This document shows, one piece after another, positions 35,030-59,290 of a DNA stretch of 64,000 nt (position 1 is the first letter of the stretch; each line of letters starts with the position of its first letter). Position numbers and translations under genes: made by a program. The stretch spans positions 1-64,000 of the forward strand of contig JAGBHC010000005.1 in assembly GCA_017935625.1 (NCBI GenBank), given 5' to 3'. Source of the DNA: Rikenellaceae bacterium (lineage in GTDB: Bacteria > Bacteroidota > Bacteroidia > Bacteroidales > Rikenellaceae). The notes under the pieces are model-generated. The model was not told the origin of the DNA, did no database searches, and was given only the letters and a program-made list of their open reading frames with translations.

Positions 35030-35092
35030 CAAATATACGGAATATTCGGTGAAAAACGAAACCCCGGGGGCGGTTCGGCCGCAAAGCGATTG
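35030..35092 (-). repeat. Promoter-bearing dispersed repeat, copy upstream of the MFS gene
   Basis: On the minus strand this copy runs from AATCGCTTTGCGGCCG through a palindromic AACCGCCCCCGGGGTT to TTTCGTTTTTCACCGAAT and ends in the -7 box TATATTTG (35030-35037), 24 bp before the MFS ATG. The outer part of the unit is diverged. Only one copy is recognisable here. Confidence 0.75.
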
Positions 35093-38061: not shown

Positions 38062-38220
38062 CAAATATAGACATATTCGGTGAAAAACGAAAGCGCAGTC
38101 GGCCACCGGCCGGTGTGCGGTCGCTTTGCGATTCGTTTGAGACAAATGTAACTGCTCGCTGAAAAACGGAGACGTGGTCGGCTGCGCCGCCGGTGCAGCC
38201 GTTCTGCGGTTCGTCCGGAG
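38062..38220 (-). repeat. Promoter-bearing dispersed repeat, tandem pair upstream of the TatD gene
   Basis: Two adjoining units: 38062-38142 (81 bp) and 38143-38220 (78 bp, diverged); a third start CAAATG follows at 38221. On the minus strand the proximal unit ends TTTCGTTTTTCACCGAAT then TATATTTG (38062-38069), 30 bp before the ATG. The proximal hairpin core is the palindrome CACCGGCCGGTG; in the distal unit it is GGCTGC...GCAGCC. Confidence 0.8.
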
Positions 38221-51796: not shown

Positions 51797-51826
51797 AGGC
51801 GGCAGATGATTCTGCCGCCTTTTTTT
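51797..51826 (+). terminator. Strong terminator downstream of secG
   Basis: AGGCGGCAGA pairs perfectly with TCTGCCGCCT across TGAT, then six T. It is about 170 bp after the secG stop. Confidence 0.9.
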
Positions 51827-51830
51827 GTTT

Positions 51831-52079
51831 CTTGTCCGATAGTTGCCAACGAAACCGAAAACATGTTCTTCCGGCATCCCGCCGATACTGCTTTCGATAT
51901 CCAGCACAACCAATCGAAATTCAGTTTCGGAACGCGAGGCAGCAGCGGATTTTGCCGTCCTGTCCGATAGTCGCCAGCGAAATCGAAAACATGTTCATCC
52001 CTGCATCCTGCCGGTACATGCTTTCGATATCCATCCAGTACAATCACTCGGGATTCAATTTCGGGACGCGAGGCAGCGA
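51831..52079 (-). pseudogene. Two tandem decayed fragments of an XRE-regulator gene
   Basis: Copies at 51831-51944 and 51960-52079 read on the minus strand as relatives of the middle of the XRE gene at 53326 (its bases about 53469-53586). Shared protein text: LPRVPKLNFDW for RFPKLNSDW, and KNMFSVSLATIG for KNVSSVSLANG. Both copies have lost the helix-turn-helix and carry shifts, so they cannot encode a working regulator. Confidence 0.75.
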
Positions 52080-52886
52080 AGTTTTTCGATTCATTGTCCG
52101 GTTGCGGATGTTTTTGCTCGGGGAGGCTCGACTCGCATATTCCGGAAAAGTTCCCGGTCGGGGTGCGGGGGCTTGTCGCTTTCCGAGTACTCGGTGGAAC
52201 CTTCCGATTCGCTTCAGCCTTTCGAAAGCGACGTTGCTGGATAGCCGAGATTCGCAGTTGTTTTTGTTTTTCTTTTTTTTTGTTAGTTCCCGGGTGAGTA
52301 TTGGAAGTGACTCCGGTTTCTGCGTTGTCATGCACTGATACGTTGTCCCGGCCCGATTGATTCTGCGGATTCCTTTTTCGGCGGTTTGGGGACTGTGGTT
52401 CTGTTCCCGTTTGCGTGCACTGTTTTATTCTCCGTGTCCTTGTGCGGGGGGCTTTTCGTTGTACGCTGTGGTGCTGTCGTGTTGGTGTTGTCGCCATTCT
52501 GTTGCAGCCTCGCTGCAAGAGTGGCGAAGGTGATTTCATGTGTATTGTTTTTCCGATTTGCGTTTGCGGTGCGGAACGGAGCTTCGTGTATGCGGAGCCT
52601 CCGATGCTCGTGTCCGGACGGCGGCCATCTACCATCTCTACTTGTCGAAGGAGAGTAGTGAATAGTCGAGCGGCCTGCTGTGCCAGCCGGGCCCGGGAAA
52701 AATGACAGCGCATTATTCGGCCGGCATGTGGCTAAACTAAAGTAAAACTTTAAGTGTTCTCGGGGCTGCAATTATTCCGGTCCCGGCTTGAAATTTTGCC
52801 CGGAACTTCTTCGTGATTGAAGAGGAAGCCATTGTTTTAATACTTGTTGGAGGTTGGGGGATAAGTCAGAAGAGTAGGGTAGTTGT

Positions 52887-55234: not shown

Positions 55235-55397
55235 AGGAATTCGGAAATGGCGGCCGCACGCCGACGACTTTCGGCTGACTTCGTTCGTGTTTTTCAGCGA
55301 ACGTCCCGCTTTTTGTCTTGAACGTATTTTGATTGCGACCGCCTTTCCGGCTCGGGCTGGCGGTGTTTTCGTTTTCGTCGAATATTGGCTATCTTTG
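55235..55397 (+). repeat. Promoter-bearing dispersed repeat, tandem pair upstream of znuA
   Basis: The proximal unit is 55316-55397 (82 bp): it starts TCTTGAACG, has an ACCGCC...GGCGGT hairpin, then TTTTCGTTTTCGTCGAATAT, and ends in the -7 box TATCTTTG (55390-55397), 23 bp before the znuA ATG. A diverged distal unit ends at 55315 (TTTTTCAGCGAACG, then a box of the type TTTTTG); its left edge near 55235 is approximate. Confidence 0.7.
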
Positions 55398-57307: not shown

Positions 57308-57589
57308 CTATTTGTTCAGTGCGCTCAGGGTTTCGAACATGGCGTCCACCTGAGTGAACATTTCCTGACGGATAAATGCGAAGTGCTTCTTCACCAGGCT
57401 CTTGTTGTGCTTTTCTGCCGGGTTGTTCACCTTTTCGAAGAGGTCGTTGCGCAGGGCTACGGCTTTCTGCATGACGGCTACGATTTCCTCCCGCTTTTCG
57501 GGGTGGAAATAGATGGAAAGATAGCAATCCGAAACCACTTCGCCTACGAGGTAGTCGATATCCTTCTTGATTAATCTTAAACTTGCCAT
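57308..57589 (-). CDS. Small conserved protein, function unknown
   Basis: 93 residues, all-helical in look: ASLRLIKKDIDYLVGEVVSDC, then FHPEKREEIVAVMQKAVALRNDL and a Lys-rich C-terminal half. No signal or membrane segment. I believe similar short proteins are widespread in Bacteroidota, with unknown function. It is alone, with its promoter inside a tandem repeat. Confidence 0.8.
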   Translation of the reverse strand: MASLRLIKKDIDYLVGEVVSDCYLSIYFHPEKREEIVAVMQKAVALRNDLFEKVNNPAEKHNKSLVKKHFAFIRQEMFTQVDAMFETLSALNK

Positions 57590-57614: not shown

Positions 57615-57776
57615 CAAATATACTAATATTCGATGAAAAACGAAAGTGTCGTCGGCCGCAGGCCGGTGCACGGTCGCAGAGCGATTCGTTCGAGACAAAT
57701 ATACGAATATTCGATGAAAAACGAAAGTGCCGTCGGCCGCAGGCCGGTGCACGGTCGCAAGGCGATTCGTTCGAGA
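57615..57776 (-). repeat. Promoter-bearing dispersed repeat, tandem 81-bp pair
   Basis: Two near-identical 81-bp units (57615-57695 and 57696-57776) with only a few differences. On the minus strand each reads TCTCGAACGAATCGC, a CGGCC-TGC-GGCCG hairpin, TTTCGTTTTTCATCGAATAT and a -7 box TATATTTG (57615-57622 and 57696-57703). The proximal box is 26 bp from the ATG at 57589. This is the best-preserved copy. Confidence 0.88.
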
Positions 57777-57805
57777 CAGATGTAGAAACGACCTCGGGCA
57801 TTTGT

Positions 57806-59290
57806 CTATCCGAGCTGGTTTTGGCTTTCGGCCAGGAAATCGACCAGGTCGCTGCTGTTCATGCCCTCCTCCCCGTAATATTCCGCGGCTTTCTCTCCGG
57901 CCAGTCCGTGGATGTAGACTCCGAGCAGGGCTGCCTGCGGAGCTGCGTAACCTCTGGCAATCAGTCCGGTCAGGTATCCGGTGAGTACGTCGCCGCTGCC
58001 GCCCTTGGCCATGCCGCTACATCCCGTCGAATTGAAGAAGCAGCATCCGTCGGGCAACACGACCATCGTGTGGGCTCCCTTGACCACTACCACGGCGCGG
58101 GTCTGGGCGGCCAGCTCTTTTACGAGTTCGATTTTGTGCTGTTCGTCGTGCCATTCGCCCACCAGTCTGCGCAGTTCGCCCGGATGGGGAGTCAGTATCG
58201 AGCCCGCCGGAATGTGGCGCAGCATTTTCTTGTGGGTGGCCAGTATGTTCAGCGCATCGGCATCTATGACCATCGGAATCTGCTGATACAACAGCTCGCA
58301 GAACGCTTCGGCCGTCTCCTTGCGCTGCCCCGTGCCGCATCCGATGCCGATGGCGTCGTAAGTTTTCGGGTCGGAAGGCATCGCCGAGAAGTACCCGGCG
58401 GCATCGAGGCTGACGATGGCGGAGGGGCAGCTGACCTGCATGGCGGTGCGTTCCGATTCGGGGATGTGGGCCGTGACCAGTCCGCAGCCGCTTCTGAGGG
58501 CTGCACCGACCGACAGAATGGCGGCTCCCATCATCTGCCTCGAGCCGCATACCAGCAGGGCTTGCCCGTAGGTTCCCTTGTGGGCGAATTTGGCTCTCGG
58601 CTCCAGAATCGACTGAATGAAATCCTCTGTTATGTAGTGATATCCGCTTTCTGCCTCATCCAGGAATTCAGGTGAAAGCTCGATGGGGAGAATCTCTATC
58701 TCTCCGCAATATTCTCCGGCTTCGGGCAGAAGCATCGCCAGTTTCGGAAATTCGAGCGTGAGCGTTGCATCGGCCTGCACGATGGTCTGTCCGGCGTTTC
58801 CGAATTCGGTTTTCATACCCGAAGGCAGGTCGATGGAGAGCACCTTGTTGGGCAGCCGGTTGATGGCTTCGATGAGGGACCGGAGCGGTTCCTTAATCTC
58901 TCCGCCGACTCCCGTGCCGAGCAGCGCATCGACGAGCACCGTCTGGTCGTCCACTCCGAACTCCTCTCCCGGAGCGAACCGGTGGATATTCTCCGGCAGA
59001 CGCTCCAGCTCGATACGGCACTCTTCGCTCAGGGCCTCTTCGGGATAGGCGCAGTAGACCGAGCAGCCGTACCCCACGTTGCAGAGCATGCGGGCGACGG
59101 CCAGACCGTCGCCGCCGTTGTTCCCTTTGCCGATGAAGAAGAGCAGCGGGTGTTCCCGTTCGATGTGGTTGCATATCCATTGGGCGATGACCTCCGAAGC
59201 GCGTTCCATCAGTTCGAGCGAGCTGACGGGTTCGTGTTCGATGGTGTAGAGGTCGGCCGCCTTGATGTTTTTGCCGGTGAGAATTTTCAT
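57806..59290 (-). CDS. nnr: Bifunctional NAD(P)H-hydrate epimerase/dehydratase
   Basis: 494 residues. It repairs NADHX and NADPHX formed by damage: the N-terminal YjeF_N epimerase (FFIGKGNNGGDGLAVARMLCNVG) and the C-terminal ADP-dependent dehydratase (AHKGTYGQALLVCGS, SILTPHPGELRRLVG and GMAKGGSGDVLTG). Same order and length as E. coli Nnr (YjeF). It starts 32 bp after fmt on the same strand. Confidence 0.95.
   Translation of the reverse strand: MKILTGKNIKAADLYTIEHEPVSSLELMERASEVIAQWICNHIEREHPLLFFIGKGNNGGDGLAVARMLCNVGYGCSVYCAYPEEALSEECRIELERLPENIHRFAPGEEFGVDDQTVLVDALLGTGVGGEIKEPLRSLIEAINRLPNKVLSIDLPSGMKTEFGNAGQTIVQADATLTLEFPKLAMLLPEAGEYCGEIEILPIELSPEFLDEAESGYHYITEDFIQSILEPRAKFAHKGTYGQALLVCGSRQMMGAAILSVGAALRSGCGLVTAHIPESERTAMQVSCPSAIVSLDAAGYFSAMPSDPKTYDAIGIGCGTGQRKETAEAFCELLYQQIPMVIDADALNILATHKKMLRHIPAGSILTPHPGELRRLVGEWHDEQHKIELVKELAAQTRAVVVVKGAHTMVVLPDGCCFFNSTGCSGMAKGGSGDVLTGYLTGLIARGYAAPQAALLGVYIHGLAGEKAAEYYGEEGMNSSDLVDFLAESQNQLG

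Follow-up and report, generated by a model that had tools for sequence, protein, structure and literature searches.

Integron cassette arrays are assembled head to tail in a single orientation, with short fixed core sequences as bounds and folded DNA sites of variable sequence. Non-autonomous relatives of IS200/IS605 insert directly 3′ of a fixed tetranucleotide, rely on a folded DNA strand and have no inverted repeats. REP sequences and REPINs are palindromes of 20–40 bp with GTAG/CGTC tags, which the Y1 transposase TnpA-REP processes in folded, single-stranded form (PMC8266576, PMC3116915). In Porphyromonas gingivalis, the BrickBuilt MITE is dispersed between genes, contains internal tandem repeats and has promoter activity, and a putative role as a mobile promoter has been raised for it (PMC4596501). 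Its 23-nt internal repeats lie between a leader and a tail, its ends are inverted repeats, its promoter activity is bidirectional, it is located 49–591 nt from genes, and filled and empty sites differ by a 4-bp duplication (PMC4596501). The promoter consensus of Bacteroides consists of TAnnTTTG at −7 and TTTG at −33 (PMC7366714).

Within the Bacteroidales, BrickBuilt is the described repeat nearest to the one presented here, which, judged by its sequence, is likewise dispersed, tandem and predicted to carry a promoter. The two differ in ends, size and target, and neither insertion at a −7 box nor a three-way junction has been described for BrickBuilt (PMC4596501). As in REP and REPIN sequences, the repeat is short, intergenic, structured and without coding capacity, but its unit measures 81–86 bp and combines a three-way junction with a putative promoter, and the carriers tested have no Y1 transposase. 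This lack of Y1 speaks against membership of the REP/REPIN-RAYT systems, as does the absence of a palindrome of 20–40 bp carrying a tetranucleotide tag at its base, and mobilisation by RAYT or IS200 was rejected on the Y1 result. Y1 (PF01797) was absent from the genome under study (G000), from a second carrier (G036) and from eight relatives, with control genomes positive; Y2 (PF04986) gave nothing above the cut-off in six genomes, and nothing above it in the control genomes either. In its apparent insertion 3′ of a fixed tetranucleotide, TTTG, the repeat resembles the IS200/IS605 relatives, while its target, a promoter core, and the missing Y1 enzyme set it apart. The head-to-tail units of one orientation, bounded by TTTG and folded, are reminiscent of integron arrays; unlike integron cassettes, however, they would carry a promoter instead of a gene, and no attC consensus boxes were seen by eye. 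The literature searched, with most subscription journals outside its scope, contained no account of this repeat.

Tandem units in the window

The window is the whole stretch of DNA that was analysed, 64,000 nucleotides of contig JAGBHC010000005.1 of a Rikenellaceae bacterium. A first-pass annotation had claimed two 81-bp units in direct tandem that end in a TAnnTTTG box with TTTC 19 nt upstream and point at a gene for a 93-aa protein. Both units are there, on the minus strand at 57615–57695 (100.4 bits in our covariance model) and 57696–57776 (104.4 bits), and are 95% identical (TRF score 300). Each has the −7 box TATATTTG at its 3′ end (57615–57622 and 57696–57703) and TTTC 19 nt upstream of it, and 25 nt separate the last box from the start codon of the 93-aa gene (57308–57589, minus strand). 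This gene has an orthologue in 137 of the 150 family genomes and no Pfam match. On the far side, the first unit of the array adjoins a probable resident (ancestral) −7 box at 57777–57784 of the same strand, now reading TACATCTG; relatives without the element have an intact TAnnTTTG here. The upstream gene (57806–59290, minus strand; YjeF_N and Carb_kinase domains) encodes an NAD(P)H-hydrate repair enzyme, and a search for loci related via this gene found none.

Related copies had also been claimed upstream of three other genes of the window. The array of the TatD-family gene does consist of two units on the minus strand, one at 38062–38142 (99.3 bits) and a second, diverged one at 38143–38220 (34.8 bits) that follows CCCATTTG. 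The copy at the MFS gene (35030–35084, minus strand, 26.8 bits) is truncated at its 5′ side, so that the fold is lost and the promoter half retained. Upstream of znuA, a diverged unit at 55316–55397 on the plus strand (25.3 bits) follows CTTTTTG; the stretch before it, 55235–55315, which the annotation had included, contains no unit recognisable to the covariance model. All copies in the window face their gene, with 22–29 nt between box and ATG. Elsewhere in the window, a diverged tandem repeat with a period of ~134 bp is present in two copies at 51821–52100.

A repeat family facing gene starts

As the annotation had proposed, a profile of the units was searched against the genome and its relatives. 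We aligned 26 copies, derived a covariance model from them and searched the 2.18-Mb genome, which gave 85 matches with E ≤ 1, the best having E = 1.7e-23. After removal of one overlapping match on the opposite strand, and with the stretches around the matches rescanned, we counted 84 units in 43 places, a family size far above chance genome-wide. Gene context was read in these stretches from codon-model gene calls that took general amino-acid frequencies as their start.

In 39 of the 41 places that have a next gene on the stretch, the units face its start. Copies within genes or pointing away from starts, the arrangement that the annotation had named as speaking against its reading, are thus confined to two exceptions: a copy with a degraded box that faces a gene end (L080), and a doubtful 22-bit match within a called gene (L078). 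In addition, the far end of one array (L087) overlaps the end of the called upstream gene. The tight spacing of 23–30 nt that had been emphasised holds in the window but not genome-wide, where the box-to-ATG distance ranges from 7 to 275 nt with a median of 53. No common function links the 39 downstream genes, which include those for EF-P, RNase HII, DNA polymerase III delta′, GTP cyclohydrolase I and PurT, a ManC-like gene, glycosidases, transporters and a NusG-like factor, among others. Divergent and co-directional upstream neighbours occur with about equal frequency, so the units do not serve as end signals for the gene upstream. These frequent divergent neighbours, along with the fact that no terminator was called, rule out the unit as a terminator of that gene.

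Units share 81% identity within arrays and 65% between arrays, which indicates that arrays also grow locally. Several contigs of the genome end in or beside repeat arrays (C33:64608-64944, at the contig end; C14:1-150; C4:1-320; and C41:4243-4456, at the contig end). The assembly therefore breaks at arrays, and our counts probably understate the real array lengths. One weak copy (L093, C30:5295-5356 of the same genome) is located ahead of a gene with the protein start MKRILGLDLGSTSIGWAVVEEN; we take this start to resemble a type II-C Cas9, and the protein had no Pfam match at the threshold used.

Putative promoter half and three-way junction

Each unit begins with a fold of ~57 nt and closes with a promoter half of ~25 nt. 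The latter has the layout TTTC-N19-TATATTTG, plus CGAATA. The exact TAnnTTTG is present in 31 of 43 gene-proximal units. CGAAT stands just upstream of the box in 30 of 36 element boxes before genes versus 2 of 47 other TAnnTTTG boxes before genes, and the −33 place is occupied by TTTC in 27 of 36 versus 2 of 47, and by TTTG in three of the 36 element boxes. The predicted element promoter is thus stereotyped and distinct from the other TAnnTTTG promoters of the genome. With the sigma-ABfr promoter of Bacteroides it shares the −7 TAnnTTTG and a T-rich motif ~19 nt upstream, but that motif is TTTC rather than TTTG, CGAATA is an extra conserved sequence, and the whole travels with a fold (PMC7366714). 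From these sequence features we infer that the boxes at the unit ends start transcription. In Tidjanibacter gallistercoris, a unit stands directly before what is presumably a TPP-riboswitch leader, named by eye, and this position would fit a transcription start downstream of the unit. In diverged copies, the promoter half matches the consensus better than the fold half (0.86 versus 0.66); this better conservation is equal in gene-proximal and distal units, and the comparison is confounded by subfamilies with other stems.

The fold consists of an outer stem (AACGAA/TTCGTT) enclosing two hairpins, that is, a three-way junction. We assessed it in two copy sets with no copies in common, A2 (26 copies of the same genome, aligned with MAFFT on sequence alone) and A4 (38 matches from other genomes). 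In A2, 95.5% of cells were paired, seven pairs had changed on both sides, and there were 27 double-change cells versus 10.3 in shuffles. In A4, double changes occurred in 16 of 19 pairs, a value reached in 0 of 500 shuffles, and amounted to 109 cells versus 37.2. The whole own-genome set (A3) gave the same picture, though it is not a third independent set because it includes the A2 copies. These statistics lean towards the fold, since A3 and A4 were fitted to the model and the shuffles ignore relatedness. When the pairing was slid along the alignment as a control, it dropped to 32–55% in every set. Moreover, the stems of subfamilies differ and still pair (AACGAA/TTCGTT, AATGAA/TTCATT, ACCGAA/TTCGGT, ATCGAA/TTCGAT and ACAAAAT/ATTTTGT). 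The fold is therefore supported by compensatory changes in two independent copy sets.

Counts of G-U to A-C in the inner helices were 5:15 in A2, 46:33 in A3 and 31:15 in A4, the last two from alignments fitted to an RNA model; the excess goes in opposite directions across the sets, and the counts give no consistent sign of RNA polarity. Rfam gave no match for the unit at its gathering score. The region has no inverted repeat pairs of at least 14 nt and the unit no terminal inverted repeats, its ends TCTC... and ...TATATTTG being non-complementary. The annotation had missed the covarying junction, the TTTG boundaries and the apparent insertion at resident −7 boxes.

Probable insertion sites and distribution

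Tandem units meet at TTTG|TCTC, and TTTG borders units on both sides, which fits a target duplication and a fixed target equally. Directly before the first unit, TTTG was found in 18 of 41 arrays of the genome and in 17 of 26 arrays of other genomes (35 of 67), whereas other positions of these flanks have it in 22 of 3484 cases (0.6% per position). The complete box TAnnTTTG directly precedes the first unit in 20 of 67 arrays versus 0 of 3216 positions elsewhere in the flanks. About half of the first units have no exact TTTG before them, which decay or unrecognised older units might explain. Some of the preceding boxes may themselves be the ends of older units that the model does not recognise, rather than resident promoters, and for this reason the comparison with relatives matters.

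At the locus of the 93-aa gene, six element-free genomes (G002, G017, G018, G035, G329 and G492) show the upstream stop codon, a TAnnTTTG, ~25–45 nt and the start codon. In G036, one unit is located exactly 3′ of the TAnnTTTG box, and in our genome two units follow the decayed TACATCTG. At the other genes that carry the element in G036, its congeners G018 and G329 mostly show just a box ahead of the start codon; in the case of cls, both are empty where G036 is filled, and the flank is recognisably similar. In our genome, the 5′ flank of the array L083 resembles G002 up to the box (GTCAAAAGTACGAATTTTTCCTGCTATTTG, at the unit boundary, versus GGCAAATGTACGAATTTTTCATACTTTTA), and the flank at the ManC-like gene (L068) does so more loosely. 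Based on these comparisons of empty and filled sites, taken from other genera or congeners whose intergenic DNA has largely diverged, a unit appears to have been added directly 3′ of a resident −7 box, bringing its own box along.

Matches were found in six of 268 Rikenellaceae genomes, namely our own, G036, G458, G454, G446 and G653, the last two with one weak match each; the G458 coordinates coincide with T. gallistercoris contigs. Most congeners of G036 gave no matches, and samples at the level of the order added only G421. A pattern scan of named genomes revealed T. gallistercoris and Xylanibacter caecicola, with tandem units of 86–87 bp that also follow a box. Related sets are thus patchily distributed, in Rikenellaceae, Xylanibacter and one further family; absence is to be taken as soft, because the stricter filters applied to searches of more than 40 genomes lose weak matches. 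Different species mostly have the element at different genes, and our genome and G036 are known to have it in common only at znuA, cls and the 93-aa gene. PLSDB yielded no plasmid match for the repeat. Carriage by phages was rejected as well: the pattern of the promoter half was matched by a single viral contig, in an AT-rich stretch that on reading lacked the fold half, so that the match is probably due to chance.

A second, sequence-unrelated promoter repeat of ~72 bp, ACTTCGTC..GATACTTCCGCTCGGCAAAA..TTTTGCTCTCGCTTATTCGTATCTTTG, has the same TTTG-to-TTTG layout and occurs in tandem as well as directly before or after units of the first class. Its sites are L081 (G000:C44; − strand, ~2801 and ~2873 of L081), L064 (−3470), L072 (+2555), L098 of Xylanibacter and L213 (G454).

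Discussion

The repeat appears to have spread to some 40 unrelated genes via insertion at existing promoter cores. We consider it probable that we are dealing with a miniature mobile element that codes for no protein and carries a promoter as cargo, and which inserts at the −7 box, regenerates this box and amplifies in tandem. Insertion would take place immediately 3′ of the TTTG in a resident −7 box and leave the unit oriented towards the gene. Because every unit brings a TAnnTTTG at its own end, the −7 box of the gene would be preserved in its position, the orientation would be set, and the regenerated box would be a new target, on which units could stack head to tail; the arrays would afterwards also change their copy number locally. 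Insertion at an asymmetric box would thus explain orientation, position and stacking alike. By analogy with REP sequences and TnpA-REP (PMC8266576), a putative moving enzyme probably recognises the fold, in the form of a single DNA strand, as its mobility signal. The annotation's suggestion of a promoter-bearing element that spread is well supported by the orientation towards gene starts at 39 of 41 places, by the stereotyped and distinct promoter, by the mostly different genes occupied across species, and by the empty sites. Counting against the proposed mechanism are the negative Y1 and Y2 searches and the roughly one half of first units that lack an exact TTTG ahead of them.

Since the fold covaries, we also weighed a transcribed structured RNA, in which the preceding box transcribes the unit and the junction serves as a 5′ leader, insulator or terminator RNA. 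To judge by the sigma-ABfr promoter, transcription initiated at the box ahead of a unit would begin close to the 5′ base of its fold. However, no excess of G-U over A-C holds across the sets, there is neither an Rfam match nor a called terminator, and divergent upstream neighbours mean that there is often no read-through to stop; we regard this explanation as unlikely. A further alternative takes up the annotation's idea of a sigma- or regulator-specific promoter family that may define a regulon: the repeats would be promoters used by a single sigma factor, or sites bound by a single regulator, maintained through selection and multiplied through ordinary recombination. This could draw on the single stereotyped promoter, unlike others of the genome, and on the superior conservation of the promoter half. 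It is nevertheless quite improbable, because the downstream genes have no common theme and membership is not conserved, with only three genes known in common between the two species; the patchy distribution in the family also argues against it, and a regulon would not account for units inserted precisely at −7 boxes already in place.

About equally improbable is a DDE-type MITE with TTTG as its 4-bp target duplication and a transposase elsewhere in the genome. Such a duplication would give TTTG at both ends, as observed, but the element lacks terminal inverted repeats, and head-to-tail stacking in one orientation would be unexpected. Least probable of all is an ancient promoter type that merely duplicated in tandem by slippage between TTTG motifs and decayed, its dispersed copies being inherited vertically. 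The higher identity within arrays does show that local duplication happens, and three genes carry the element in two genera. Yet most loci differ between species, most congeners of G036 are without the family, relatives have simple promoters at the same places, and slippage cannot put homologous sequence at 43 loci.

If the interpretation as a mobile promoter element is right, 81 bp would suffice to rewire transcription without breaking genes, by delivering a standard promoter to any gene through insertion at the core of its promoter, and tandem stacking would act as a copy-number dial. It would become testable whether promoters behave as selfish elements. Ready-made promoters for gut Bacteroidota would be at hand, along with a handle on a recombination enzyme that targets promoter DNA. 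More tentatively, there might be a wider group of transposable promoter cassettes that home to −7 boxes, perhaps as a folded strand entering the open transcription bubble, and restore the box; at least two sequence-unrelated classes with the TTTG-to-TTTG layout would stack on each other, moved by a putative enzyme.

Finally, in Alistipes muris (L097) and an Alistipes sp. (L104), TTTCACCTTTCACCGAATAAAAGTATCTTTG is found after GTGAAAAGT runs, upstream of an apparent der/EngA gene, and is possibly another promoter-linked repeat.
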